From: Longimicrobium sp.
GTDB lineage: Bacteria; Gemmatimonadota; Gemmatimonadetes; Longimicrobiales; Longimicrobiaceae
Reading direction: 5' to 3'
Assembly (NCBI RefSeq): GCF_035474595.1
Contig: NZ_DATIND010000005.1
Location: forward strand, 1 to 64,000
DNA length: 64,000 nt
Position 1 is the stretch's first letter; every line of letters starts with the position of its first letter. Under the pieces are notes generated by a model, which did no database searches, was not told the DNA's origin, and saw only the letters and a program-made list of their open reading frames with translations. Made by a program: the position numbers and the translations under genes. Positions 11,335 through 61,811 of the stretch are shown in pieces.

Positions 11335-11523
11335 TCAGCACTCCGGCGACGTGAACTGCCGCGGGCAGAGGCAGTTATTCCACCCGCTGATGCTGTTGGG
11401 ATCGAAGGTCGATTCGAGCAGCGCGGCCTCGTGCGCGCGCACGGTGCCCTCCCCGCCGGCCGCTCCGCTGGTCGGGAACGCCTCCACCACCAGATTTTCC
11501 GGATCCAGCCGCATCTTCCGCAT
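11335..11523 (-). CDS. Orphan RiPP-like precursor peptide
   Basis: A 62-residue peptide from an ATG with GGAGG seven bases upstream. Its first half matches the peptide at 54415: (M/L)RLDPENLVVEAF here against LRIEDLAVESF there, then a shared GTVRA followed by HE or RE. The second half is small and polar and ends with three cysteines (C51, C53, C62; NNCLCPRQFTSPEC). A conserved leader before a variable Cys-bearing tail is the signature of a ribosomally made, modified peptide precursor. Such leaders occur in families annotated as pinensin-like lanthipeptides; that name is from memory and uncertain. No maturation enzyme is adjacent. Confidence 0.7.
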   Translation of the reverse strand: MRKMRLDPENLVVEAFPTSGAAGGEGTVRAHEAALLESTFDPNSISGWNNCLCPRQFTSPEC

Positions 11524-37805: not shown

Positions 37806-38303
37806 TCAACCTTCCGCCGGCGCCGCGGGGCCGTGCGGCGGCTCCGCGGCGAAGATCATCCGCACGGCCAGCATCACCGCGCCGATGGTGATGGCCATGT
37901 CGGCCACGTTGAAGATGAACGGGAACCAGCGCACCTGGATGAAGTCGGTCACCCACCCGTTCATCACCCGGTCGCCCAGGTTCCCCAGCGCCCCGGCCAT
38001 GATCAGCACCGCGGCCAGCCGCACCAGCGAGTCGCGCGTCTGCTGCGCGATCCGCGCCGCCACCGCGATGCCGATGGACGCCGCGGCGACCAGGAGCGGA
38101 AGGCGGAGGTACTCCGGCAGCCCCTGCGCGAACGAGAAGGCGATCCCCGGGTTGCGGGCGTGCGCCAGCCACAGCCACCCGTCGATCACCGGGCGCTGCC
38201 CGTACAGGTGGATGTGGTTCTGCACCAGGAACTTGGTGAACCAGTCGGCGGCCACCACGGCGAACAGCGCCAGGGCCAGCCAGCGGCGTCGGTACAGCTT
38301 CAT
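37806..38303 (-). CDS. lspA: Lipoprotein signal peptidase
   Basis: Signal peptidase II, 165 residues, four membrane helices. It cleaves prolipoproteins after lipidation. Conserved motifs are VAADWFTKFLVQ, NPGIAFSFA, GALGNLGDRV (first catalytic Asp) and FIFNVADMAITIG (second catalytic Asp). Its ATG overlaps the stop of the FAH-family gene by 4 nt. It fits the several lipoprotein genes in this window. Confidence 0.95.
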   Translation of the reverse strand: MKLYRRRWLALALFAVVAADWFTKFLVQNHIHLYGQRPVIDGWLWLAHARNPGIAFSFAQGLPEYLRLPLLVAAASIGIAVAARIAQQTRDSLVRLAAVLIMAGALGNLGDRVMNGWVTDFIQVRWFPFIFNVADMAITIGAVMLAVRMIFAAEPPHGPAAPAEG

Positions 38304-39111: not shown

Positions 39112-41670
39112 TCACCCCGCGGCGCGGCGCTCCTGGCGCTCGCCGTAGAAGTTCAGCATCGCCTGCTTCACCGTGGCCCACGGGCCCTTCACCAGCGGCG
39201 CGTCGGGGAGCGAGTCCAGGAAGTAGCGGCCGTAGCTCTTCCGTACGATGCGCCCGTCCAGCACCAGCACCACCCCGTGGTCGTCCGCCGAGCGGATCAG
39301 CCGCCCGAAGCCCTGCTTCAGGCGGATGGCGGCGTGCGGGAGCATGTAGTTCCAGAACGAGTTGCCGCCCGACTGCTCGATGGCCTCGATGCGCGCGGCG
39401 GTCACCGGCTCGCTGGGCACCTTGAACGGGAGCTTGGGGATGACCAGCCCGCGCAGCGGCTGGCCGGGAACGTCGACCCCCTCCCAGAAGCTCGTGGTCC
39501 CCAGCAGGATCCCCCGCCCCGACGCGGCGAAGCGCTCCACCAGCTGCGCGCGCGGCGCCTCGCCGTGCACGAACAGCGGCCACTCGTTGTCGATCCTCCG
39601 CGCGCGCAGCTCGTTGGCCACGTGGCGGAGCGCGCGGTAGCTGGTGAAGAGGACGAACAGTCCGCCGTCGCTGATCTTGGCGTGCTCGATGGTCGCGCGC
39701 ACCGTGGCCTCGTCGTGGCGGGGATCGCGGTCCCCCGCGGGGAGCGGCAGGTCCATCGGCACGGCGAGCAGCGACTGGCGCCCGAAGTCGAAGGGCGAGG
39801 GGAAGATGGCTTCGTCCACCCGGTGCTCGTCGGCGAAGGGGAAGCCCAGTCCCAGGCGCTGGCGGACGAAGCGGAAGTTCCCCTGCGTCGCCAGCGTGGC
39901 GGAGGTGAGGATCACCGTCGGCACCTGCTCGAAGACGGACTCGCGGAGGACGTCGGCCAGGTCCAGCGGCGCCGCGTTAAGGGTGAGGTTCCCTTCCCGC
40001 CCCTCGCGCTCGGGCTGGCGCTCGATCCAGCGCACCATCCTGATGTTGTCATCCCCCGGGCGGAGCGCCTGGCGGAGGGCGTCGCCGGCGCCGTCCACGC
40101 GGTTCATCGCCCCGCGCAGCTCCACCAGCTGAGCCTCCATCTGGCGCTGCATGTCCTCGTCCACCGTCACCCGCTCGCGCAGCAGCTCCATCGCCTCGCG
40201 CAGCGACTTCAGGTTGTCGAGCACGCCGGTGAGCGCGTCGTCCAGCCCCAGCGTCCACACCGGGTGGCTGGCGAATGAATCCTCCAGCCGGATCGTCTCC
40301 TCGCCCCCGCCGGTGAACAGGTCGCCCAGGAAGGAGAAGACGCTGGCCGCGCGGTCCCGCGCCCCGTCGAGCGCGGGGAAGATGCGGTGCTCGATGACGT
40401 CCAGCGCGCTGCGGGCGATCAGGTCGTTGCGCACCGCCTTCAGCGCCGTGGCGAAGGCGGGGATCAGCCCCTTGCCGCGGTTCTCCAGCCGCCGGAGGAT
40501 GCGGAACAGCCCGCGCCGGGTGATGCGCGCGCCCAGGTGGCTGGTGGCCGCCTCTTCCAGGTTGTGCGCCTCGTCCAGCACCAGCCGCTTGTAGGTGGGG
40601 AGCACGGCCGGCGCGGTGTAGTTTCCCAGCGCGCGGCGCACGGCCAGGTCGGAGAAGAGGAGGTGATGGTTGACGACCAGCACGTCGGCGGCCGAGGCCT
40701 CGCGGCGCGCGCGCTGGTAGAAGCAGTCCTCGAAGTGCGGGCACTTCACGCGCAGGCAGACGTCGGTCTCGCTGGCCACCTCGTCCCACACCTCGGCCGA
40801 GGGGCGGAACGACAGGTCCGAGAGCGAGCCGTCCTTGGTGGTCTGCAGCCAGTCGACGATTCCCGTGAGCTCCGCCTGCTTCTGCGCGTCGAAGAGCTGC
40901 GTGGAGCTCACCTTGGCCAGCAGCGCGCGGCGGATGGAGACGTAGTTGGCGCGCCCCTTCACCAGCGCGTACTTGAAGGGCTCGCCCAGGGCGCGGCGCA
41001 GCAGCGGCAGGTCCTTTTCGACCAGCTGCTCCTGCAGGTTGATGGTGTTGGTGGAGACGACGGTTCGCTCGCGGTTCTCCAGCGCCCAGCGGATGGCGGG
41101 AAGGAGGTAGGCCACCGACTTCCCGGTCCCCGTTCCCGCCTCGGCGATGCCCACGCCGCCCTCGTTGTACAGCTCGGCGATCATGCGCGTGAGCGCGCGC
41201 TGCTGCGGCCGGTCCTCGTAGCGCGGATGGCCGATGGAGAGCGGCCCGCCGGGCCCCAGCTCGTCGGCCACCGCGTCGGCGTCGATCGGCTGGTTGTCGC
41301 CCGGCTCGGGCGGCTCCAGGACGACGTAGAGCTCCGACGCGTCGTTGTCGATGATCGCGAACCCCAGCCCCTGCTCGAAGAGCCGCGCGGCCACGGAAAG
41401 GTCCGCCTCCGACGGCTGCAGCACGCCCGAGGGGTGGTTGTGGACCAGCAGCCCCGGCTGGGGGATCTCCTTCTCGCGGATCAGCGCCAGCACGGCCCCC
41501 GCGTGCCCGCGGGCGATGGTGCGCGGCTCCTCGACCGAGCCGCCCTCGCCCACCCTGCACACGAAGCACACCTCGTTGCCGCGCGCCCGCGCGATCTCGC
41601 TGCGGATGCGGGCGGCGGCGGCGGGCGACAGGAACAGGTCGACGGCGGAGCGCGGGGAGGCGGGCTTCAT
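39112..41670 (-). CDS. JAB (RadC-like) domain fused to a DinG-type helicase
   Basis: An 852-residue two-part protein. Residues 1-120 form a RadC-like JAB/MPN domain with the metal motif H77-N-H79-PSG...D90. Residues about 150-852 form an XPD/DinG superfamily 2 helicase: EAGTGTGKSVAYL (Walker A, 179-185), DEAH (366-369), and the late motifs TTSFWEGVDVPGQ and QGFGRLIRS. The Fe-S cluster positions are three-quarters conserved: C305-x4-C310-x5-C316, while the first, normally in KGRxxYxC, is Ser245 in KGRANYVS. It probably unwinds damaged or R-loop DNA; the JAB part is unexplained. The 250 nt upstream hold only the terminators of the next operon. Confidence 0.88.
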   Translation of the reverse strand: MKPASPRSAVDLFLSPAAAARIRSEIARARGNEVCFVCRVGEGGSVEEPRTIARGHAGAVLALIREKEIPQPGLLVHNHPSGVLQPSEADLSVAARLFEQGLGFAIIDNDASELYVVLEPPEPGDNQPIDADAVADELGPGGPLSIGHPRYEDRPQQRALTRMIAELYNEGGVGIAEAGTGTGKSVAYLLPAIRWALENRERTVVSTNTINLQEQLVEKDLPLLRRALGEPFKYALVKGRANYVSIRRALLAKVSSTQLFDAQKQAELTGIVDWLQTTKDGSLSDLSFRPSAEVWDEVASETDVCLRVKCPHFEDCFYQRARREASAADVLVVNHHLLFSDLAVRRALGNYTAPAVLPTYKRLVLDEAHNLEEAATSHLGARITRRGLFRILRRLENRGKGLIPAFATALKAVRNDLIARSALDVIEHRIFPALDGARDRAASVFSFLGDLFTGGGEETIRLEDSFASHPVWTLGLDDALTGVLDNLKSLREAMELLRERVTVDEDMQRQMEAQLVELRGAMNRVDGAGDALRQALRPGDDNIRMVRWIERQPEREGREGNLTLNAAPLDLADVLRESVFEQVPTVILTSATLATQGNFRFVRQRLGLGFPFADEHRVDEAIFPSPFDFGRQSLLAVPMDLPLPAGDRDPRHDEATVRATIEHAKISDGGLFVLFTSYRALRHVANELRARRIDNEWPLFVHGEAPRAQLVERFAASGRGILLGTTSFWEGVDVPGQPLRGLVIPKLPFKVPSEPVTAARIEAIEQSGGNSFWNYMLPHAAIRLKQGFGRLIRSADDHGVVLVLDGRIVRKSYGRYFLDSLPDAPLVKGPWATVKQAMLNFYGERQERRAAG

Positions 41671-41762: not shown

Positions 41763-41896
41763 ATCACACGGAGGAACCGGAGGGAACGGAGGAGCTCTCC
41801 GCTTCCTCCGTTCCCTCCGTGTGATCTCCATCTTTTGCGGAGACGGGGATGGAGATGAAGACGCGGAGACGCGGGGATCGTCCCCCACGTCTCCGC
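41763..41896 (-). terminator. Double terminator of rSAM cassette copy 1
   Basis: Two hairpins follow the rSAM stop (41921). The first is GCGGAGACG (41863-41871) paired with 41888-41896, plus an inner GGGG/CCCC. The second is a long imperfect repeat, 41763-41825, with arms built of GGAACGGAGGA and TCCTCCGTTCC. The same pair occurs after cassette copy 2 at 46003-46138. Confidence 0.7.
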
Positions 41897-41920: not shown

Positions 41921-43390
41921 TCAGCCGACGGCGGCGGGCTGCGTGGCGGCGACCGGCTTCCCCGCGGCGGCCTGCGCGCGGGCGCGGGCCAGCGTGTCGA
42001 GGGTGAAGCGCATCTCCCGCTTCAGGTTGGGCTTCACGCTGCAGCAGGTGCGCTTGTTGTCGGTGATGCGGGTGATGGGGCAGGTGGCGCCCTGGCAGCC
42101 GGGGAGCACGTAGCAGCTCCTGCACAGCTCGTCGGTCTCGAAGTGCGGGGCCACCCACTGCATGAAGTTGATGTCGTTCAGCTCCATCTGCCCCTCGGGG
42201 GTGATCCGCCCTACCACGTTCTCGGGCATCTCGTCGAGCGCCACCGTGCACTTCATCAGCTTGCCCGTGGCGCCCACGATGAAGCTGTACGGCCGCGCCG
42301 CGTAGCACACCTGCGACCCCGGCATGCGCAGGTCGTAGATCCCCCCCTCGGGGTTCAGCCCCAGCTCCACCGCCCGGGTGCGCAGCCCCTCGCGCGCCTC
42401 CTTCTTCTGCTCGATCCCGCACACGGCCAGCCGGTCGTCGTTGTCGCCGCCCCAGGCGCCGATCGCGCGGAAGCGCAGCGCGAAGCGCCGGTCGTGGGCG
42501 AAGTCCTCGCTCAGCGCCTCAAGGAACGGCCCCAGCCGCTCGAAGTTCACCTGGTCGAAGTTCACGCGGATGGTGATGTTGAAGTCGGCCCGCCGCGCGC
42601 GCATGGAGCGGAGGTTGTCCAGGATCGTGGCGTAGGTGGGGCTCCCGTCGCGGCCCACGCGCTTGCAGTCGTGGTCCTGCGGCAGCCCGTCGATGGTGAT
42701 CTGGTACTTGGTGCACCCCCACTCCAGCAGCCTGGTCGCCTTCTCCTCGGTCAGCAGGTAGGCGTTGGTGGTCATGGCGTGCGAGCAGTTCAGCCCGTAG
42801 CGCTTCACCTGGTCGTTGAAGAAGGGCGCCAGGTCCTCGATGGCCTCCCAGCCGTACAGCGGCTCGCCGCCGAACCAGCTGATGGTGAGCCCCCGCAGCC
42901 GCGAGGCCAGCGGCTCCACGAAGGCGCGCACCCCCTGCCGCACCTCGGGAAGCATGGTGCCGTTGCGAAACTTCTCGTAGCAGTACACGCAGCGGAAGTT
43001 GCAGTCCTCGCTGGCCAGCAGGATCAGGTGCAGCATGTCGCTGCGCCACTGCTGCCGGCCGTACTGCGTGCGGAAGCGGGCCACCTCGTCCAGCCCCTCG
43101 GGCACCAGGAAGCCGCGCCCCGACAGGTGCGTGGCGTAGGTGTCCAGCGGCTCGGGAAGGGGCCCGGCGGTGAGCGCCGCCAGGGCGCCGTCGCGGTGCT
43201 CGGGCATGAACTCCATCACCGCGCCGGTGAAGGTGTTCCACAGCAGCATCCGCCCGTCTGCGTGCTGGGTGCGCGCGTTGAAGCGCGACGGCACCCAGCG
43301 CGGCTGCGGCCGGTAATGGAGCTGGGCCAGCGGCCCCACCGGCGCCCCGGGCGCGCGGTCCAGGGGCGAAACGCTCATCACCTCGCTCAT
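41921..43390 (-). CDS. Radical SAM/SPASM peptide-modifying enzyme, copy 1
   Basis: A 489-residue rSAM enzyme. Residues 25-115 form a front domain (PRWVPSRFNARTQHADGRML). The SAM-binding cluster is C130-NFR-C134-VY-C137, then SWFGGEPLYG. A SPASM-type region holds C324, C362, C381, C423, C426, C432, C437, C449 and C450, enough for two auxiliary Fe-S clusters. Such enzymes install thioether or carbon-carbon crosslinks in ribosomal peptides. It is last in the operon after the peptide and TPR genes, with a GGAGA SD eight bases before the ATG. It is closely similar throughout to the copy at 46163, with blocks identical around the cluster. Its substrate is presumably the peptide at 45390. Confidence 0.88.
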   Translation of the reverse strand: MSEVMSVSPLDRAPGAPVGPLAQLHYRPQPRWVPSRFNARTQHADGRMLLWNTFTGAVMEFMPEHRDGALAALTAGPLPEPLDTYATHLSGRGFLVPEGLDEVARFRTQYGRQQWRSDMLHLILLASEDCNFRCVYCYEKFRNGTMLPEVRQGVRAFVEPLASRLRGLTISWFGGEPLYGWEAIEDLAPFFNDQVKRYGLNCSHAMTTNAYLLTEEKATRLLEWGCTKYQITIDGLPQDHDCKRVGRDGSPTYATILDNLRSMRARRADFNITIRVNFDQVNFERLGPFLEALSEDFAHDRRFALRFRAIGAWGGDNDDRLAVCGIEQKKEAREGLRTRAVELGLNPEGGIYDLRMPGSQVCYAARPYSFIVGATGKLMKCTVALDEMPENVVGRITPEGQMELNDINFMQWVAPHFETDELCRSCYVLPGCQGATCPITRITDNKRTCCSVKPNLKREMRFTLDTLARARAQAAAGKPVAATQPAAVG

Positions 43391-43416
43391 CGGGCGGTCT
43401 CCAGCGGTTGCGGGGG

Positions 43417-45309
43417 TCACGCGGGCTGCAGCGCCGCTCCGGCGCGGCGGGCCACGGCTTCCTGCGCCAGGGCGCGGTTGCGGCGGAGCGCGGCGTTGTC
43501 GGGCGCCAGCTCCACGGCGCGGTCCAGGTCCTCCATGGCCTCGTGCAGGCGCCCGGCCTCGAAGCGCACCGCGGCGCGGTTGGCCCGCAGCAGCGCGTTG
43601 GCCGGGTCGGCGGCCACGGCGGCGTCGTACGCCCGCAGCGCCTCGTCGCGCTCTCCGCGCGCGTGGCGGGCGCGGGCCAGCCCGGCCCAGGGCTCGGGGC
43701 GGGCGGGGTCCAGGTCCACGGCACGCTCCCAGGCGGCCTCGGCCTCGGCGCCGCGCCCCTGCCGCGCCAGCGCCTGCCCCAGGTTGAACCACACCTCGGG
43801 GTAGGGCGGCGACAGCTCGATGGCGCGGCGGAAATCCTGCTCGGCCTCGGCGGCGCGCCCCTGCTTCAGGTACAGGTTGCCGCGGTCGTTGTAGTACTCG
43901 CTGTAGTCGGGGTCCATCTCCATGGCCATCTCGTAGTGGCGGATGGCCTCGTCGACGGCGCCCGCCTGCGCGTACACCTGGCCGGCGTTGTACAGCAGCA
44001 CCGAGCGGTGCAGGCGGTGCCGACCGGGGGGAAGGCTGCGGTCCAGCCGCTCGGAGTTGCCGTGCGACAGCTCGATGGCCTCGCCGGCGTTCCCCTGGCG
44101 GAAGCGCAGGTACGCCAGCCCGTTCAGCAGGAACGCGGTCAGAAAGGCGCGCTCCTCCGGCTTCATCTCCGCGCGCTCCAGCTCGCGCATGGCCTCGTCC
44201 AGGTAGCGCTCGGCGGCCGCCGGGTCGCGTTTGGGGAGATGGCGGCCGTGCAGCATGGCCATCTGGTACAGCACGCGGACGCGGTCGGCCGGGTCGGTGA
44301 GCCGGTCCAGCCCCTCGGTCTGCAGGATCTCGCGCGACACCTCGGGCTGGCCGGCGGTCAGGTGGATCACCTGGAGCTTGTCGACCAGGGCGGTGCGGGT
44401 GAAGAAGAAGCCGGGGCGGTCGAAGAGGGCCAGGTTGGCGCGGACCACGGCCGCGTGCCGCAGGGCGTCGGCGTAGAAGCCCATCTGCGTGAGCAGCCCC
44501 ATCACCACGGCGTGCCAGTCGGCGGCGCGGTCGGGGCGCCCCGCGGCGTTCCACAGCCGGATCACCTCGTGCCCGTGGGCGCGGATGTACACCGTGTCCT
44601 CGCGCACCCAGGCGTCCATCTCCTCGGCCAGGCGCGCGGCCTCGGCGGGGTCCGGCTGCGCCTCGGGCGACGGCTCCAGCTCTATCCGCACCCGGGTTAC
44701 GCGGGCGTGCGGCGCGAGCTCGGCCTCCACCGCGTCGCCGTGGCCGGGGTCGACGGCGGCGACCAGGACCAGCCCCAGCGCGTGGCCGCGCCGGCGGAGC
44801 AGGTGCTGGAAGAAGTGGCCGGCGATGGCGCCGCGGCGGTCGAACGCCTCGCACGCCAGCGCCCAGCGCCCGGCGCCCGACTCGGCGTGCCACCCGGCCA
44901 GCAGGTCGATCACCCCGTGGCCGATGCGGTACGCGCGGTCGGCGGCGTAGTTGCGCACGGCCTCCTCGGCCACCGAGCTCTCGGTCAGCGGTACGTAACG
45001 GGGGCGGATGCGGCGCAGCAGCAGGGGAAGGACCTGCGTGATCTCCTGGTCGTGCCGCCGGAACAGCGCGGGAGCCTCGGGCTCGAGCCGCGGGAGGAGC
45101 GCCTGGAGCCAGGTGTCCACCCCCGCCCACAGGCCGCCCCGGCTGGTGTCGCAGGGAAGGAGCCAGGCGTTCCAGCCCTCCTGTCCGGCGCAGGCGCGCA
45201 CCCACGCCTCCAGGCGCTCGCGGCGCTCCGTGCCGGCCTCGGCCTCGAGCACCACCACGTGCGCGCCCGGGGCGAAGGGGGGAAGGGGAAGTGCGTGGCT
45301 CGGCCGCAT
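43417..45309 (-). CDS. STAND-like/TPR partner protein, copy 1
   Basis: A 630-residue protein. The first 250 residues have the strand-helix rhythm of a STAND/LuxR-type NTPase: HVVVLEAEAGTERRERLEAWV where Walker A should be, and WALACEAFDRRGAIAGHFFQHLL like the Walker B/sensor helix. The P-loop Gly-Lys-Ser/Thr is missing, so nucleotide binding is doubtful. TPR repeats follow from about residue 260, strongest at 445-610 (RSVLLYNAGQVYAQAGAVDEAIRHYEMAM, then PEVWFNLGQALARQGRGAEAEAAW). It lies between the peptide and rSAM genes, 26 nt from the rSAM start. It probably presents the peptide to the enzyme, as TPR proteins do in FxSxx-COOH systems; that is inference. Confidence 0.82.
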   Translation of the reverse strand: MRPSHALPLPPFAPGAHVVVLEAEAGTERRERLEAWVRACAGQEGWNAWLLPCDTSRGGLWAGVDTWLQALLPRLEPEAPALFRRHDQEITQVLPLLLRRIRPRYVPLTESSVAEEAVRNYAADRAYRIGHGVIDLLAGWHAESGAGRWALACEAFDRRGAIAGHFFQHLLRRRGHALGLVLVAAVDPGHGDAVEAELAPHARVTRVRIELEPSPEAQPDPAEAARLAEEMDAWVREDTVYIRAHGHEVIRLWNAAGRPDRAADWHAVVMGLLTQMGFYADALRHAAVVRANLALFDRPGFFFTRTALVDKLQVIHLTAGQPEVSREILQTEGLDRLTDPADRVRVLYQMAMLHGRHLPKRDPAAAERYLDEAMRELERAEMKPEERAFLTAFLLNGLAYLRFRQGNAGEAIELSHGNSERLDRSLPPGRHRLHRSVLLYNAGQVYAQAGAVDEAIRHYEMAMEMDPDYSEYYNDRGNLYLKQGRAAEAEQDFRRAIELSPPYPEVWFNLGQALARQGRGAEAEAAWERAVDLDPARPEPWAGLARARHARGERDEALRAYDAAVAADPANALLRANRAAVRFEAGRLHEAMEDLDRAVELAPDNAALRRNRALAQEAVARRAGAALQPA

Positions 45310-45389
45310 GGGTTCTCCGGGGATGGGGGAACGGCGTCGCTGTCCGGGGGTGCGGCAGGGCCTTTGGGGCCCTGCCGCAGCTCGCTGCG

Positions 45390-45554
45390 TCAGGAGGCGC
45401 AGAAGCAGTTCTGGTTCGACGTCCCCGGATCGCATCCCGGGATGTAGAACGAAGCGCTGGTCGCCACACCGCCGGGGCCGTACGGATCGAAGGTCTCGAG
45501 ACCCTCGAAGCCGGTGGGCTGGGGCGAGGCGAACGGGTTGTGGGGATCGAGCAT
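45390..45554 (-). CDS. Candidate RiPP precursor peptide, copy 1
   Basis: A 54-residue peptide. The leader-like half MLDPHNPFASPQPTGF then GLETFDPYG is shared with the copy at 49647. The C-terminal part contains FYIPGCDPG and NQNCFCAS, with Cys41, Cys50 and Cys52. The pattern DPxG, TxNxNCxC and three cysteines is kept between copies while other tail residues differ, as expected for a recognised leader and a modified core. An AAAGGA SD sits inside a leader hairpin. It is the first gene of the operon, about 80 nt before the TPR gene. The nature of the modification is unknown. Confidence 0.78.
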   Translation of the reverse strand: MLDPHNPFASPQPTGFEGLETFDPYGPGGVATSASFYIPGCDPGTSNQNCFCAS

Positions 45555-45564
45555 GGTGCACCGT

Positions 45565-45633
45565 CCTTTCCTGACGAAAGGTGAGGGGTTTACCTGCACG
45601 CGAATGTCTACACGGGACGGGTCATTACGTCAA
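45565..45633 (-). promoter_or_regulatory. Promoter and 5' leader hairpin of cassette copy 1
   Basis: On the minus strand TTGACG (45633-45628), 17 nt, TAGACA (45610-45605). The leader then contains CCTTTC-GTCAG-GAAAGG (45581-45565), whose 3' arm overlaps the only plausible SD (AAAGGA) of the peptide gene. Both elements are identical in copy 2 at 49816-49884. Confidence 0.7.
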
Positions 45634-45867
45634 GCATTTCTTATGTGACAAGGCTTGAAAAGAACTCCATCAAAGAAAGGTCCGGTGATATAACCTCACA
45701 GGAGAGCTAGTTTTACACTCCGTGTTCTGCTGACTGCAGTTCATCTGATGTCTTGAAAAGAAAACAGCCCCAACAGAGAGAAGCGGAGGTACATCCTGCC
45801 ACCATCCGCTACAGGCCTTTTCTTACTACGGAGATCTTGGTTTCCGGGTGCGGAACGTGCGGCGTCT

Positions 45868-45950
45868 CAGCTGATTTTTCTCCGCGGATCGCTCATCTCT
45901 CAAACCGCCTCCAGCAGCAGCTCGTGGTCCTCTCGGGCGATGGCGTCGAT
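45868..45950 (-). pseudogene. Remnant of the 3' end of the gene at 50128
   Basis: Minus-strand translation gives IDAIAREDHELLLEAV and then a stop. This matches the C-terminal IDAIAHDDHELLLEAL of the intact gene at 50128-50364, after which the remnant is frame-broken. Flanking sequence on its left also aligns with the region left of 50128. It marks the right end of the duplicated 4.2-kb unit. The rest of 45634-46002 is AT-rich, partly alignable with 49885-50110, and holds no gene. Confidence 0.75.
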
Positions 45951-46002
45951 CCCTCTTGTTCGTCCCCTCCGCCGCGCATCCTATCCTCCCGAACTGCTTG
46001 AT

Positions 46003-46138
46003 CATACGGAGGGAAACGGAGGGAACGGAGGAGCTCTCCGCTTCCTCCGTTCCCTCCGTGCGATCTCCGTCTTCAGCGGAGATGGGGGATGGAGATGAAG
46101 AAGCGGAGACGCAGGGGGATCCATCCCCGCATCTCCGC
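46003..46138 (-). terminator. Double terminator of rSAM cassette copy 2
   Basis: GCGGAGA (46103-46109) pairs with TCTCCGC (46132-46138), with an inner GGGGAT/ATCCCC. A long GGAGG/CCTCC inverted repeat follows at 46003-46072. The arrangement is the same as 41763-41896. Confidence 0.7.
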
Positions 46139-46162
46139 TTCCGAATCTCCCGCCCGATCGCG

Positions 46163-47629
46163 TCAGCCGACGGCGGTGGGCTCCGGGCGGAGCGCCGCGA
46201 TCCCCGACGCGCGCGCGCGGGCCGCCGCGTCGAGGGTGAAGCGCATCTCGCTCTTCAGGTTGGGCTTCACCCCGCAGCAGGTGCGCTTGCCCTCGGTGAT
46301 GCGGGTGATGGGGCACGCCGCGCCCTGGCACCCGGGGAGCACGTAGCAGTGCTTGCACAGCTCGTCGTTCTCGAAGTGCGGTGCCGTCCACTGCGTCATG
46401 TTCAGGTCGTTCAGCTCCATCACCCCTTCGGGCGTGATGCGGCCGACCACGTTCTCGGGCATCTCGTCGAGGGCCACCGTGCACTTCATCAGCTTGCCCG
46501 TGGCGCCCACGATGAAGCTGTAGGGCCGGGCCGCGTAGCACACCTGCGCCCCCGGCGTGCGCACCTCGTCGATCCCGCCCTCGGTGCCCAGCCCCAGCCC
46601 CAGGGCCTTGTCGCGCAGCTCGTCGCGCACGTGCCGGCGCTCGTCCATCCCGCACACCGCCAGCCGGTCGTCGTTGTCGCCCCCCCACTGCCCGATGGCG
46701 CGGTAGCGCACCCGGAAGCGGCGGTCGTGGGCGAAGTCCTCGCTCAGCGCCTCCAGGAAGGGCCCCAGGCGCACGAAGTTCTCCTGGTCGTAGTTCACCC
46801 GCACCGTCACCTCGAACTCGGTGCGGCGCTCGCGCAGCGCGCGCAGGTTGTCGAGAATGGTGGCGTAGGTCGGAGACCCGTCGCGCCCCACGCGCTTGCA
46901 GTCGTGGTCCTGCGGCAGCCCGTCCAGCGTGATCTGGAAGCGGTTGCACCCCCAGTCCAGGAGCTTCGTGGCCTTCTCCTCGTTCAGCAGGTAGCCGTTG
47001 GTGGTCATCCCGTGCTGGAAGCGCAGCCCGTGGTCCCGCACCGCCCGGTCGAACACGGGCGCCAGCTCCTCGATGGCCTCCCACCCGTACAGCGGCTCGC
47101 CGCCGAACCAGCTGATGGTGAGGTAGCCCAGCTTGGGCGCGCGCTGCTCCACCAGCGTGCGCACCCCCTGCCGCACCTCGGGAAGCATGGTGCCGTTCCT
47201 GAACTTCTCGTAGCAGTACACGCAGCGGAAGTTGCAGTCCTCGCTGGCCAGCAGGATCAGGTGCAGCGTGTCGGTGCGCCACTGCTGCCGCCCGAACTGG
47301 GTGCGGAAGCGCGCCAGCTCGTCTACTCCCTCGGGCACCAGGAAGCCGCGCCCGGCCAGGTGCGTGCCGAAGGGGTCGAAGGGCTCGCTCACCGGGCCGG
47401 CGGTGAGCACCGCCAGCGCCGCGTCGCGATGCTCGGGAAGGAACTCCATCATCGCGCCGGTGAAGGTGTTCCACAGCAGCATCCGCCCGTCGGCACCCAC
47501 GGTGCGCGCGTTGAAGCGCGACGGCACCCAGCGCCGCGCCGGCGTGTAGCGCAGCTGCGTGAGCGGCCCCTGCGGCGCCGCGGGGGCGCGGTCCAGCGGC
47601 GAAATCGCCATCACCTCGCTCGTGCTCAT
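46163..47629 (-). CDS. Radical SAM/SPASM peptide-modifying enzyme, copy 2
   Basis: A 488-residue homologue of the enzyme at 41921. The rSAM cluster is C132-NFR-C136-VY-C139. The SPASM cysteines are in the same places (VCYAARPYSFIVGATGKLMKC, CKHCYVLPGCQGAACPI, RTCC). Divergence is concentrated at the N-terminal 30 residues, in the partial TIM-barrel region around residues 150-230 (for example QRAPKLGYL for LASRLRGL), around residues 330-360 (the RRHVRDELRDKALGLGLG stretch), and in the C-terminal tail. The ATG at 47629 follows GGAAGGAA. It lies downstream of peptide copy 2 and TPR copy 2. Confidence 0.88.
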   Translation of the reverse strand: MSTSEVMAISPLDRAPAAPQGPLTQLRYTPARRWVPSRFNARTVGADGRMLLWNTFTGAMMEFLPEHRDAALAVLTAGPVSEPFDPFGTHLAGRGFLVPEGVDELARFRTQFGRQQWRTDTLHLILLASEDCNFRCVYCYEKFRNGTMLPEVRQGVRTLVEQRAPKLGYLTISWFGGEPLYGWEAIEELAPVFDRAVRDHGLRFQHGMTTNGYLLNEEKATKLLDWGCNRFQITLDGLPQDHDCKRVGRDGSPTYATILDNLRALRERRTEFEVTVRVNYDQENFVRLGPFLEALSEDFAHDRRFRVRYRAIGQWGGDNDDRLAVCGMDERRHVRDELRDKALGLGLGTEGGIDEVRTPGAQVCYAARPYSFIVGATGKLMKCTVALDEMPENVVGRITPEGVMELNDLNMTQWTAPHFENDELCKHCYVLPGCQGAACPITRITEGKRTCCGVKPNLKSEMRFTLDAAARARASGIAALRPEPTAVG

Positions 47630-47658
47630 GACACGTTCCTTCCGGCGGGTTGCGGGGG

Positions 47659-49551
47659 TCACGCGGGCTGCAGCGCCGCTCCGGCGCGGCGGGCCAGGGT
47701 CTCCTGCACGAGCACGTGGTTGCGCCGGAGCGCGTCGTTGCCGGGGTCCAGCTCCACGGCGCGCTCCAGGTCGGCGGCGGCCTCGTCCAGGCGCCCCAGC
47801 TCGAAGCGCACGGCGGCGCGGTTGGCCAGCATCAGCGCGTTCCCGGGGTCGGCGGCCACGGCGGCGTCGTACGCCCGCAGCGCCTCGTCGCGCTGGCCGC
47901 GGGCGTGGCGCGCGCGCCCCAGCTTCACCCACGCCTCGGCGCGCTCGGGGTCCAGGTCCACGGTGCGCTCCCAGGCGGCCTCGGCCTCGGCGGGGCGCCC
48001 CAGCCGCGCCAGCGCCTGCCCCAGGTTGAACCACACCTCGGGGTACGGGGGCGAAAGCTCGATGGCGCGCCGGTAGTCGGGCTCGGCCTCGGCCGGGCGG
48101 CCCAGCTGGAGGAGAAGGTTGCCGCGGTCGTTGTAGTACTCGCTGTAGTCGGGGTCCATCTCCATGGCCTCGCTGTAGTAGCGGATGGCCTCCTCGGGCT
48201 GGCCGGCGCGGGCGTACACCTGGCCGGCGTTGTACAGCAGCACCGAGCGGTGCAGCCGGTGGCGCCCCTCGGGAACGTTCTCTTCCAGGCGGTGGAAGTT
48301 GTCGTGCGTAAGGCCGATGGCCTCGACCGCCTCGCCCTGGCGGAAGCGCACGTACGCCAGCCCGTTCAGCAGGAAGCCGGTGAGGAAGGCGCGGTCGGCG
48401 GGGTCCATGTCGGCCCGCTCCAGCTCGGCCATGGCCTGGTCCAGGTAGGCTTCCGCGGCGGCGTTGTCGCGCCGGGGGAGGTGGCGCGCGTGCAGCATGG
48501 CGGCCTGGTACAGCGCCCGCGCGCGCGACGCGGGCTCGGTCAGCCGGCCCAGCCCCTCGGTCTGCAGGATCTCCAGCGCCGCCTCGGGCTGCCCCATGGT
48601 CACGTGGATCACCAGGAGCTTGTTCACCAGCGCCGAGCGGGGATAGAAGAAGCCCTCGCGGTCGAACAGGTGCAGGTTGGGCAGCACCACGCGCGCGTGC
48701 CGCAGCGCGTCGGCGTAGAAGCCCATCTGCGTGAGCAGCCCCATCAGCAGCGCGTGCCAGTCGCCGGCGCGGTCGGGGCGGCCGGCGGCGTTCCACAGGC
48801 GGATCACCTCGTGGCCGTGCGCCCGGATGTCGAGCGTGTCCCGCGAGACCCATCCCTCCATCTCCGCGGCCCGGCGCGCGGCCTCGCCCGGGTCGATGCC
48901 GTCGTCCGGCCCCGGCTCCAGCTCCAGGCGCACGCGGGTGACGCGGGCGAAGGGCGCGAGCTCGGCGGCCACGGCGTCGCCCTGGCCGGGCTCCACGGCG
49001 GCCAGCAGCACCAGCCCCAGCGCGTCGCCGCGGCGGCGCACCAGGTTGCGGAAGAAGTCGCCCACCATGGCCCCGCGGCGGTCGAACGCGTCGCAGGCCA
49101 GCGCCCAGCGCCCGCCGCCCGACCGGCCGTGCCACGCCTCCAGCAGGTCGATCATCCCGTGGCCGATGCGGTAGGCGCGGTCGGCCGCGTAGTTCCGCAC
49201 CGCCTCGTCGCGGGTGGAGGTGTCGGTGAGCGTCACGTAGCGGGGGCACAGCCGCCGGCGCAGGTCGGGCACGATCTGCGTGAGCTCGTTGTCGTGCCGC
49301 CGCACCAGCTCCGGGGCATCGGCCTCCAGCGCGGGAAGGAGCGCCTCGGTCCAGGTGCCGAGCCCCGCCCACAGCCCGCCCCGGTCCACGTCGCAGGGGA
49401 GAAGCCACGCCGACCACCCGTCCCGCGCCACCACGGCGCGCACCCAGGCGTCCAGCCGTTCGCGGCGGGCGGCGCCGCCGGCACCCTCCAGCACCACGAC
49501 CTGCGCGCCGGGGGCGAAGGGAGGAAGGGGAAGAGATCCGCTGGGCTGCAT
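47659..49551 (-). CDS. STAND-like/TPR partner protein, copy 2
   Basis: Exactly 630 residues like copy 1, with the same architecture: a degenerate NTPase-like front (QVVVLEGAGGAARRERLDAWV in place of a P-loop; WALACDAFDRRGAMVGDFFRNL), then TPR repeats, ending in the same ARRAGAALQPA. The most variable parts are the N-terminal 40 residues and scattered helix surfaces; the block MEMDPDYSEYYNDRGNL is identical. It is 95 nt from the peptide gene and 29 nt from rSAM copy 2. Confidence 0.82.
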   Translation of the reverse strand: MQPSGSLPLPPFAPGAQVVVLEGAGGAARRERLDAWVRAVVARDGWSAWLLPCDVDRGGLWAGLGTWTEALLPALEADAPELVRRHDNELTQIVPDLRRRLCPRYVTLTDTSTRDEAVRNYAADRAYRIGHGMIDLLEAWHGRSGGGRWALACDAFDRRGAMVGDFFRNLVRRRGDALGLVLLAAVEPGQGDAVAAELAPFARVTRVRLELEPGPDDGIDPGEAARRAAEMEGWVSRDTLDIRAHGHEVIRLWNAAGRPDRAGDWHALLMGLLTQMGFYADALRHARVVLPNLHLFDREGFFYPRSALVNKLLVIHVTMGQPEAALEILQTEGLGRLTEPASRARALYQAAMLHARHLPRRDNAAAEAYLDQAMAELERADMDPADRAFLTGFLLNGLAYVRFRQGEAVEAIGLTHDNFHRLEENVPEGRHRLHRSVLLYNAGQVYARAGQPEEAIRYYSEAMEMDPDYSEYYNDRGNLLLQLGRPAEAEPDYRRAIELSPPYPEVWFNLGQALARLGRPAEAEAAWERTVDLDPERAEAWVKLGRARHARGQRDEALRAYDAAVAADPGNALMLANRAAVRFELGRLDEAAADLERAVELDPGNDALRRNHVLVQETLARRAGAALQPA

Positions 49552-49646
49552 GGGAGCTTCCGGGTGAAGGGTGGCCCGCCGCACGATCCTCTTGCGCCGC
49601 GGCAGGGCGAGGTACGCCCTGCCGCGGTTCCTGCCTCGGCCGTGGC

Positions 49647-49805
49647 TCAGTAGGGGATGCAGCCGCAGTTGAGGTTCGTGGTCGGGCCGCACGGATCGCC
49701 GCCGTAGAAGGCGTTGTCCGTCGAGATCGTCCCGTCGTACGGGTCGAAGGTCTCGAGGCCGCCGAAGCTGGTCGGCGAGGCGAACGGGTTGCGCGGATCG
49801 AGCAT
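49647..49805 (-). CDS. Candidate RiPP precursor peptide, copy 2
   Basis: A 52-residue peptide, MLDPRNPFASPTSF then GLETFDPYDG, followed by a core region with NAFYGGDPCG and TNLNCGCIPY. Its three cysteines (39, 47, 49) are one residue closer together than in copy 1. The shared elements with copy 1 are the leader, FYxG, DP, TxNxNCxC. The first gene of its operon, under a promoter and hairpin identical in layout to copy 1. Confidence 0.78.
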   Translation of the reverse strand: MLDPRNPFASPTSFGGLETFDPYDGTISTDNAFYGGDPCGPTTNLNCGCIPY

Positions 49806-49815
49806 GGTGCACCGT

Positions 49816-49884
49816 CCTTTCCTGACGAAAGGTGAAGGGTTTACCTGCACGCGAATGTCTACACACGGCGAGACATCACGTCAA
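49816..49884 (-). promoter_or_regulatory. Promoter and 5' leader hairpin of cassette copy 2
   Basis: TTGACG (49884-49879), 17 nt, TAGACA (49861-49856) on the minus strand; leader hairpin CCTTTC-GTCAG-GAAAGG at 49832-49816, overlapping the SD. Conservation with copy 1 continues through the start codon. The 240 nt to the right are AT-rich and hold no gene beyond the terminator at 50043. Confidence 0.7.
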
Positions 49885-50127: not shown

Positions 50128-50364
50128 TCAGCCGATTTCCTCCGCGGGGTCGCTCATCCCCAGCGCCTCCAGCAGCAGCTCGTGGTCGTCGTGGGCGATG
50201 GCGTCGATCTCGATGAAGCCCAGGCGCACCGGCTCGGCCTCGTCCTCGGGGCAGCGGAAGCGCGCGGCGTAGATGCCGCGCTCGGTGGGCGCGGGGTGGC
50301 CGTACAGCACCTCCACCAGCCAGCTGCGGCCGCGCGCGTCCGGGAAGATCGCCCTGTCCTTCAT
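50128..50364 (-). CDS. Small hypothetical protein
   Basis: A 78-residue protein beginning MKDRAIFPDARGRSWLVEVLYG, then ERGIYAARFRCPEDEAEPVRLGF. Compact and probably alpha/beta. An ATG eight codons earlier (50388) is an alternative start that would overlap the upstream lipoprotein gene. Its 3' end was copied into the duplication junction at 45868. Family not recognised. Confidence 0.65.
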   Translation of the reverse strand: MKDRAIFPDARGRSWLVEVLYGHPAPTERGIYAARFRCPEDEAEPVRLGFIEIDAIAHDDHELLLEALGMSDPAEEIG

Positions 50365-50371
50365 CTCCCCG

Positions 50372-51247
50372 TCATTCTGGATCCCCATCGAGCTGCCGCA
50401 TGGCGATCCGGCCCGAGTGCCGGGCATCTCGCGCGGTGCCCGTGAGGATTCCCGCCGCGGGCTGCACCTGGAAGGTGTCGAAGTTCCAGTTCACCTTTCC
50501 GCCGCCGGTCTTCACCACGTCGATGCCGGTAAGGACAAAACTGCCGCCCGGCATCATCTCCACCCGCAACGTCTCCACGTAATCCTCCTCGAAGTAGCGC
50601 GCGACCAGGGCGCCATCCTCACGCGTGACCACCAGTCGCGTACCTCGGCGACCCATCACGGTACCGCGCCATTCGCCCACCAGCGCGTCCTCCAGCGCGG
50701 TGCGCGCGGCCTGCTGCTGAAGCTCGGCCTGTGCCTGCGCCTCGAGCTGCGCCCGGGCGGCGGCGAGCTGCTGCTGGTACTGGAAATCGCGGTCTTGCAC
50801 CGAGCCGACGACGATCACCCGCGCGGCGGTGAAGAAGTCCCTCGGCTGGCCGAGGGCGCGCGTGGGATCGTTCTCCATCTGGAACCTGGTGCTCCAGTCG
50901 CCGCCGGTAAACGTGGCGTCGGCGCGGCCGTACACCGTCTTGAAGTCGCCCCGGTTCCCCGCCTGGCGGATGAAGAGGGTATCGCCCACGCGGTGGTCCT
51001 CCACGTAGGTCGGCGCGGTGAGCGCGATGGTGGCGCGGAAGCGGCCCAGGAAGTGGTCGCGCGCGGCCCCGCGCAGCTGCGACGCCTCGAGGTGGAAGGC
51101 CGAGGCGTGCCAGTACGCGGGGATCTCCACCCCGAAGCGCTCGCGCAGCTGCCCCGCGTCGGGCGGCAGGCGCTCCCTGCAGGCGGCCACGGCCAGCGGC
51201 GCGACGAGGCACAGGAAGGATGCGGGATGGATGCGGATCTTCATCAT
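50372..51247 (-). CDS. Predicted lipoprotein
   Basis: A 291-residue lipoprotein: MMKIRIHPASFLCLVAPLAVAAC with lipobox AVAAC. The mature region has a helical part (FQYQQQLAAARAQLEAQAQAELQQQAARTALED) and a C-terminal beta-rich domain (EWRGTVMGRRGTRLVVTRE, GSFVLTGIDVV). No family recognised. The small gene at 50128 starts 7 nt after its stop (or overlaps it), so they are likely co-transcribed. Confidence 0.65.
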   Translation of the reverse strand: MMKIRIHPASFLCLVAPLAVAACRERLPPDAGQLRERFGVEIPAYWHASAFHLEASQLRGAARDHFLGRFRATIALTAPTYVEDHRVGDTLFIRQAGNRGDFKTVYGRADATFTGGDWSTRFQMENDPTRALGQPRDFFTAARVIVVGSVQDRDFQYQQQLAAARAQLEAQAQAELQQQAARTALEDALVGEWRGTVMGRRGTRLVVTREDGALVARYFEEDYVETLRVEMMPGGSFVLTGIDVVKTGGGKVNWNFDTFQVQPAAGILTGTARDARHSGRIAMRQLDGDPE

Positions 51248-54414: not shown

Positions 54415-54693
54415 ATGAAGAAGCTCAGGATCGAGGACCTGGCGGTCGAATCGTTCGAGACCGCGAACGTGGCGGGGGGTCGCGGGACCGTGCGCGCTCG
54501 CGAGGTCAGCTACCCCGACGACAGCTGCGACAGCTACTGCGCGAGCGACTACCCGCGCTACTCGTGCGGCGCGTGCGAGAGCGTGCCCATCATGGAGTGC
54601 AACCAGACGAACTATCCGTACGGCTGCACCGGCAGCCTGGACTACACCTTCTGCGAGCCCGGCTGCGACACGCAGTACGACATGGGCTGCTGA
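54415..54693 (+). CDS. Cysteine-rich RiPP-like precursor peptide
   Basis: A 92-residue peptide with GAGGAG seven bases before the ATG. The leader KKLRIEDLAVESFET then GGRGTVRARE matches the peptide at 11335. The core of about 57 residues has nine cysteines with many Tyr/Asp/Ser (DSCDSYCASDY, SCGACESVPIMEC, FCEPGCDTQYDMGC). An odd cysteine count and many spaced Ser/Thr allow lanthionine, disulfide or rSAM thioether chemistry. No modifying gene is next to it; enzymes may act in trans. Type is inference. Confidence 0.72.
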   Translation: MKKLRIEDLAVESFETANVAGGRGTVRAREVSYPDDSCDSYCASDYPRYSCGACESVPIMECNQTNYPYGCTGSLDYTFCEPGCDTQYDMGC

Positions 54694-61265: not shown

Positions 61266-61811
61266 TCAAACCTCGCTTTCGCGCAGGAGAGGGCTGGAGC
61301 GCAATTCCGAGATCTCCGCCTCCACCAGGTCGGGAGGGTCCTTCGAGATCCATTCCGTCCCTGCCCCGATCATTAACCGCGTGCGGCCGGCGACGTGGCC
61401 CAGGCCGAGCACGTGTCCGAGCTCGTGGGCCATCGTCCAGCGCGTCGCTGTCTCGGCAACGACCGCGCCGGGCCGGCCCGGCGGATGCGCGGCGCACCCG
61501 TTGCTCTCGGGATAGGTAGCGAGCACGAAGTAAACCACGATCTCGCCTTCCGGTACACCGTCGCGCTCGCGGAAGAGCCGTTCCTGGTCCTCGGTGACCG
61601 CTCCGCGTACGCAGCGGCCGATCTCCACCATGAGCAGGCTGGGGCGGTCGAGGTGCTGCACCGACGCAAGCTCCACCCGGATGCCCGCAGTCGCGAACAC
61701 GCGCCGCGCCGCGCCGACCATCTCCTCGATCGTGTAGTGTAGCGGCTCGCTGAGAATTCGTACATGGAATCGAAGGGTCAGTTCCGGGGAGGGCACGCCG
61801 ATGGAAGCCAT
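61266..61811 (-). CDS. Metzincin-type zinc metalloprotease-like protein
   Basis: About 181 residues. H129-E-x2-H133-x5-H139 in AHELGHVLGLGHV is the extended HExxHxxGxxH zinc motif, followed by RTRLMIGAGTEW, a candidate Met-turn. The N-terminal part (IEEMVGAARRVFATAGIRVEL) matches small archaemetzincin-like or matrixin-like domains. No signal peptide, so it is probably cytoplasmic. The next ATG upstream is absent; a GTG at 61826 is an alternative start. Followed by the HEAT gene after 2 nt. Confidence 0.82.
   Translation of the reverse strand: MASIGVPSPELTLRFHVRILSEPLHYTIEEMVGAARRVFATAGIRVELASVQHLDRPSLLMVEIGRCVRGAVTEDQERLFRERDGVPEGEIVVYFVLATYPESNGCAAHPPGRPGAVVAETATRWTMAHELGHVLGLGHVAGRTRLMIGAGTEWISKDPPDLVEAEISELRSSPLLRESEV

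Follow-up and report, generated by a model that had tools for sequence, protein, structure and literature searches.

The window analysed here, 64,000 nucleotides of contig NZ_DATIND010000005.1 from a Longimicrobium sp. (assembly GCF_035474595.1), carries on its minus strand two direct copies of a three-gene cassette, in which a short peptide gene is followed by the genes for a tetratricopeptide repeat (TPR) protein and a radical S-adenosylmethionine (SAM) enzyme with a SPASM domain. All six genes are intact. Copy 2 encodes a peptide of 52 amino acids (aa) (MLDPRNPFASPTSFGG-LETFDPYDGTISTDNAFY-GGDPCGPTTNLNCGCIPY, positions 49647-49805), a 630-aa TPR protein (47659-49551), in which a STAND/AAA-like domain without the Walker A lysine (residues ~17-208) precedes helical and TPR repeats, and a 488-aa radical SAM/SPASM enzyme resembling TIGR04463 (46163-47629). 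In copy 1, the peptide has 54 aa (MLDPHNPFASPQPTGFEG-LETFDPYGPGGVATSASFY-IPGCDPGTSNQNCFCAS, 45390-45554), the TPR protein again 630 aa (43417-45309), and the enzyme 489 aa (41921-43390). An initial annotation of the window had described a duplicated operon with peptides and TPR proteins of these lengths. This description holds, as order and strand are the same in both copies, and the repeat unit measures ~4.24 kb.

A peptide gene accompanies the TPR gene wherever the latter was located. At all nine TPR loci (two in the window's own genome; C39, C187a and C187b in genome G224; C101 and C316 in G243; C120 in G306; C632 in G300), a peptide open reading frame (ORF) of 26-56 aa with a ribosome-binding site lies directly upstream. 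Each peptide starts with an N-terminal extension that varies, followed by a conserved segment of 18-19 aa (ETFDPYxDxTxxTxAALY, in its broader form G[LM]ETF[DN]PYxDxTxxTxAA[LF]Y) and a divergent tail, which contains Cys in the cassettes with a radical SAM enzyme and ends in GCIPY and CFCAS in the window. The seven peptides from outside the window are MHALGSTAQAQTHSFTGMETFNPYDDPTIATSAALYGGAWWCPIDPDGNNLCICAD, MLPHELPGTGLETFDPYQDPTMAAAAALYGGAPHCPFDGQGNYLCICAEI, METFDVFSGETEESAAALYPWWVYEPYDPFGLGL, MTSFELYQDSTVKTEAALYPFDICWWWLVGV, MISFEFYGKDTEQTVAAFYVEGCEGFPPPEWPPVDQFPQPILA, MFTLDPYGSDTLNTSAATYDCWECPEAPWCQGQSTLPPPTA and MQIFSIFTGGEASTPAEYPWYLCVAD. Mean identity in the shared segment is 0.45, against 0.31 after shuffling, and in the tails 0.39 against 0.35, a comparison of little power for sequences this short, on which we do not rely. 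A degenerate motif, derived from these same peptides, recovered eight of the nine and nothing else from ~768,000 six-frame residues, peptide 2 being the one that escapes it. When a profile of seven of the nine peptides was run against 395 genomes of the phylum, it found those seven, one weak match within a 912-codon frame, and the G306 peptide, which revealed a TPR locus that had been missed before. Neither the peptides nor the front of the TPR protein match any Pfam or NCBIfam family, in keeping with the earlier claim of a precursor and a partner unlike those described.

A TTGAC box is found ~70 bases before the start codon in 8 of the 9 peptide genes, and the peptide gene therefore looks like the first of its unit. 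In the window, the promoter-like sequence TTGACG-17-TAGACA lies 5' of peptide 2 at 49856-49884 and 5' of peptide 1 at 45605-45633, both on the minus strand. It could be argued that short peptides without any family match are chance ORFs ahead of the TPR gene that yield no product. We consider this next to impossible, in view of a motif kept across four genera, the ribosome-binding sites, the conserved promoter-like box and a ratio of non-synonymous to synonymous substitution rates (dN/dS) of ~0.5 between the copies.

A search with the front of the TPR protein (438 residues) covered 298 genomes of the phylum, of which 3, all from this family, were positive, and 21 genomes of the family. Matches of an N-domain profile to the 298 phylum genomes were confined to the same bacterial family. 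The sole and weak test beyond the phylum, for which the complete TPR protein was the query, gave matches to generic TPRs only, and a plasmid search with the N-domain gave no match. Distant N-terminal matches in G307, G299, G302, G305, G224 (C121) and G303 were taken as wrong-frame artefacts, because a cobQ-like gene lies at or next to each site in the loci retrieved.

The radical SAM enzyme is not a constant member of these loci. A short precursor beside a radical SAM/SPASM enzyme, the arrangement by which loci for ribosomally synthesized and post-translationally modified peptides (RiPPs) are recognized, is present twice in the window, on G224 C39 and in G243, where the peptide gene and the front of the TPR gene are on C101, and the rear part of one further TPR copy is on C122 with the enzyme gene. 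The initial annotation had proposed to look for the peptide next to homologous TPR-radical SAM pairs; it is there in two other genera, as it is at all other TPR loci. No enzyme gene lies beside the TPR gene at G224 C187a, G243 C316 and G306 C120. G224 C187b and G300 C632 are cut short by contig ends, but no unassigned radical SAM enzyme of this enzyme family was found in those assemblies (that of G300 is only 61% complete). Because at least three loci lack the enzyme, the conserved unit appears to be the peptide and the TPR protein, with the enzyme as an addition, and the pair looks like an undescribed bacterial peptide system. Tandem arrangement recurs: G224 C187 has the order peptide-TPR-peptide-TPR, and the sequences of G243 C101 and C122 (L024 and L045) suggest an independent second tandem cassette array that was split by the assembly. 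The end of C101 and the start of C122 cover the same TPR residues with different sequence, and the outer flanks of the two contigs match both flanks of the G224 C39 cassette.

Within the TPR protein, Pfam finds TPR-type repeats only, and no helix-turn-helix (HTH), DNA-binding or output domain. In the full-length AlphaFold2 model (predicted local distance difference test score, pLDDT, 84.5), residues 17-208 form a five-strand alpha/beta domain; from there to the C-terminus come helical hairpins and TPRs. As the fold search with this model was swamped by TPRs, the N-domain was modelled separately (pLDDT 77). Foldseek then matched RdrA, ORC/Cdc6 AAA+ domains and, lower, MalT, with modest E-values (best 1.3e-4); a profile of the domain found nothing meaningful among PDB sequences. 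The homologues retain an acidic, CDDFDR-like stretch where Walker B would lie, and GK[ST] after strand 1 (Walker A) occurs in 0 of 9, which supports the broken NTPase front that had been noticed. The protein shares the fold class of the N-domain and a helical-repeat arm with STAND NTPases that carry TPR-like arms (MalT and others), but differs from them in the missing Walker A lysine of all nine homologues and in having no output domain. Since the P-loop has been lost, the role would probably be that of an ATP-independent peptide receptor or scaffold. The combination of a dead STAND domain, a TPR arm and a constantly linked peptide suggests that the protein binds the shared peptide segment. 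It could do so either as a scaffold for modification or as a sensing receptor.

If it were a receptor, the peptide or its tail, modified or not, could be a signal that is read inside the cell by the pseudo-STAND/TPR protein, loosely as in RRNPP systems or MalT, with the radical SAM enzyme as a tailoring enzyme in some lineages. TPR proteins are classical peptide receptors, the sensor MalT is among the fold matches, and peptide and TPR protein form an invariant pair with or without the enzyme. Recurrent tandem copies with divergent tails would fit a diversification of specificity, and clostridial ranthipeptides influence quorum-sensing gene expression (PMC8102284). For an RRNPP-type receptor with a cognate peptide, the observation is one of genetic pairing. 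The TPR protein has no HTH or other output domain, the peptide has no secretion signal, and no exporter or importer is found nearby. Moreover, the conserved part of the peptide is N-terminal, and it is the tail, not the segment paired with the TPR protein, that varies most. We regard a signalling system as possible, on the unlikely side. The tandem duplications and the divergent aromatic or Cys-containing tails (for example PFDICWWWLVGV) could also belong to a bacteriocin- or toxin-like peptide, with the TPR protein as immunity or antitoxin partner and the enzyme boosting potency in some lineages. This is decidedly improbable, as a 630-aa pseudo-ATPase would be unusual as an immunity protein and no exporter is present. 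PADLOC gave merely generic TPR and radical SAM matches, and the TPR protein was rejected as a defence gene.

Both copies of the radical SAM enzyme contain CxxxCxxC (CNFRCVYC), CX13GX4C and CX2CX5CX4C; in canonical SPASM domains, the last Cys spacing is X3. The nine Cys that the initial annotation counted beyond CxxxCxxC are present (residues 326, 364, 383, 425, 428, 434, 439, 451 and 452 of copy 2), and two more (228 and 244) lie in the barrel. The best NCBIfam models describe RiPP maturases, namely TIGR04463, CefB, Clo7bot, geopeptide and PapB. TIGR04463 (rSAM_vs_C_rich, a radical SAM/SPASM RiPP maturase) scores best and is aligned over nearly its whole profile, but the window enzymes stay under its curated cut-off and are not members as curated. 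We found nothing in the literature that names TIGR04463, nor on radical SAM RiPPs of Longimicrobi- taxa. Among PDB sequences, 5wgg, the ranthipeptide synthase CteB, comes nearest; the similarity covers only the radical SAM core (residues 124-297 of the query), and the precursor type differs. CteB is not known to have a TPR partner.

Seven further homologues of the enzyme in the family and an eighth in a different family of the class have no TPR neighbour. Where their precursors are visible, these have classical ELSVEELDxxAGG leaders at loci L038, L039 and L040, and leaders of another kind at L041, L042, L044 and L074. The four TPR-linked enzymes form one clade (100/99), which nests, with midpoint rooting, within this group, whose precursors for the most part have the ordinary ELSVEEL..AGG type of leader, and the TPR proteins linked to them form one clade as well (95/94). 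As this clade lies inside a group of leader-dependent RiPP enzymes, the radical SAM enzyme was probably recruited from that group, and this would have happened once, into an older two-gene module of peptide and TPR protein. Alternatively, given the weakness of the TPR tree in its deep branches, the enzyme may have been lost from the other TPR loci.

On contig C91 of the window's own genome (L039:6885-13716), 11 precursors of the type DELSVEELDxxAGG...DNTNCxxxCTSNxxC surround a single enzyme of the same family, together with a 390-aa partner that belongs to no family, has weak TPR matches, and has homologues in L038, L041 and L074. In L042:4077-8748, L044:8806-13301 and L074:4658-10003, a related enzyme clade is found beside a daptide-like HExxH metalloprotease (111 bits in L042 and 90 bits in L074, cut-off 300), and the precursors start ...EFSILELEDRLEFA; L042 also has a lipid A acyltransferase-like protein alongside.

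The tail of the window peptides had been written as TxNxNCxC; the common motif is better given as N-x-x-C...C. In the four peptides of radical SAM-type TPR cassettes, Asn is found three residues ahead of 6 of the 12 Cys, where tail shuffles lead one to expect 1.0. Corresponding counts are 21 of 34 Cys for the L039 precursors (4.3 expected), 11 of 17 for L038 (1.7 expected), and five occurrences for L040 (1.1 expected). NxxC is present in 4/4 peptides of the radical SAM type, versus 0/5 peptides at other TPR loci. In NxxC RaS-RiPPs, Asn precedes Cys by three residues in a short precursor encoded beside a radical SAM enzyme (PMC8326336, PMC13361665), and the enzyme NxxcB of Streptococcus orisratti links Cys23 to the beta-carbon of Asn20, with the same spacing (PMC8326336, PMC13361665). 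Because the motif is enriched at the NxxcB spacing, the enzyme can be predicted, by analogy, to probably staple Asn to Cys of the peptide tail: it would take a hydrogen from the Asn of N-x-x-C and join this Asn to Cys in a ranthipeptide-type thioether. Like the NxxcA/NxxcB ranthipeptide locus, the cassette pairs a radical SAM enzyme with a neighbouring short precursor that has Asn and Cys at this spacing, a likeness of motif; it differs in its leader, in the pseudo-STAND/TPR gene between precursor and enzyme, and in having no Rgg regulator. An alpha-thioether, an epimerization or a C-C cross-link in place of the NxxC beta-thioether would also make a RiPP. Families nearest in score make varied bonds, and sequence alone reveals no chemistry, but the exact Asn-Cys spacing repeats in the precursors of several related enzymes, and such other outcomes therefore appear unlikely.

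We thus favour, with middling confidence, a tandemly duplicated RiPP cassette, for which an Asn-Cys thioether is predicted and in which a pseudo-STAND/TPR protein would be the partner of the peptide. The co-encoded TPR protein would recognize the conserved peptide segment, the enzyme would crosslink the tail, and export and biological activity of the product are presumed. Several points weigh against this reading. TIGR04463 scores are 175.3 and 182.5 bits, far under the 525-bit cut-off, no RiPP recognition element was detected by hidden Markov model in the enzyme, and neither an exporter nor a leader peptidase was found adjoining the cassette. NxxC is absent from the related locus L041, and only four radical SAM-type TPR peptides are known. 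Only gene linkage points to the proposed role of the TPR protein; that it is a mere accessory of the radical SAM enzyme is unlikely, because peptide/TPR pairs occur without the enzyme. More tentatively, the basic unit may be a two-gene module, a peptide system of a type not described so far, in which the dead STAND protein recognizes the fixed peptide segment, the variable tail serves as product or signal, and stapling by the radical SAM enzyme is a later, optional layer. The pairs without an enzyme, the membership of the enzyme in an ordinary leader-dependent RiPP group and the pointer from N-x-x-C to known chemistry go beyond the initial annotation.

The parallel with FxSxx-COOH systems of Actinobacteria, which the annotation had drawn, survives as a loose analogy. 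These systems also combine a small peptide, a radical SAM/SPASM enzyme and a nearby NTPase-type protein with TPRs (PMC7159879), but the cassette has no FxSxx tail, zincin metallopeptidase, TIR domain or intact AP-ATPase, and no VMAP-ternary genes were seen. Membership is ruled out by gene content, with neither an FxSxx C-terminus nor a zincin metallopeptidase beside the cassette.

The history of the duplication can be read from its flanks. An 86-aa gene (78 aa from an inner ATG; 50128-50388, minus strand) and a dinG-like helicase gene (39112-41670, minus strand) border the insertion. In four genomes of the same genus (G286, G251, G273, G032), the site is empty, with the homologue of the 86-aa gene 57-115 bases from dinG. 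Between the copies, a 3'-end remnant of the 86-aa gene (approximately 45870-45951, minus strand, from the junction alignment) is fused to a copy (46012-46087) of the spacer that precedes dinG (original 41773-41848) and marks the other duplication end. As the spacer between the copies keeps both flank remnants, the duplication took place in situ. Long blocks are 85-92% identical between the copies, and protein identity is 77% for the enzyme, 74% for the TPR protein and 65% for the peptide. By the NG86 method, dN/dS is 0.156/0.283 (~0.55), 0.177/0.353 (~0.50) and 0.259/0.489 (~0.53), respectively; orthologous enzymes of two other genera are under tighter constraint (0.115/0.534). With dN/dS ~0.5 and no frameshift or stop in either copy, the copies are not decaying, and are kept under constraint while diverging.

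Further afield, the remark that the window holds no exporter or protease is right for an exporter beside the cassette, but not literally for proteases, since it contains a signal peptidase II at 37806-38303 and, at 61266-61811, a weak M10-like protein; neither looks linked to the cassette. The window also encodes a Pinensin-type leader peptide (54415-54693, plus strand; NF038180, 24.9 bits, cut-off 24), similar to peptides at 11335-11523 (minus strand) and L026:7117-7251 (minus strand). The latter two have an LD/LDV..L.VE(A/S)F leader and no obvious lanthipeptide enzyme adjoining. More peptides with MRKLKLD..L.V(E/D)SF and Cys-rich tails are found in L064:13681-14061 and L041:7439-8639, in tandem in the latter.

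Radical SAM peptide biosynthesis would gain with this cassette a further type of precursor and of partner, the latter a STAND/TPR protein without P-loop, along with a specific predicted bond from the Asn beta-carbon to the Cys sulfur at N-x-x-C. The family also offers a natural experiment, in which the same partner and peptide segment occur both where the modifying enzyme is present and where it is missing. Should the partner instead be a receptor, the system would represent a new type of peptide sensing.

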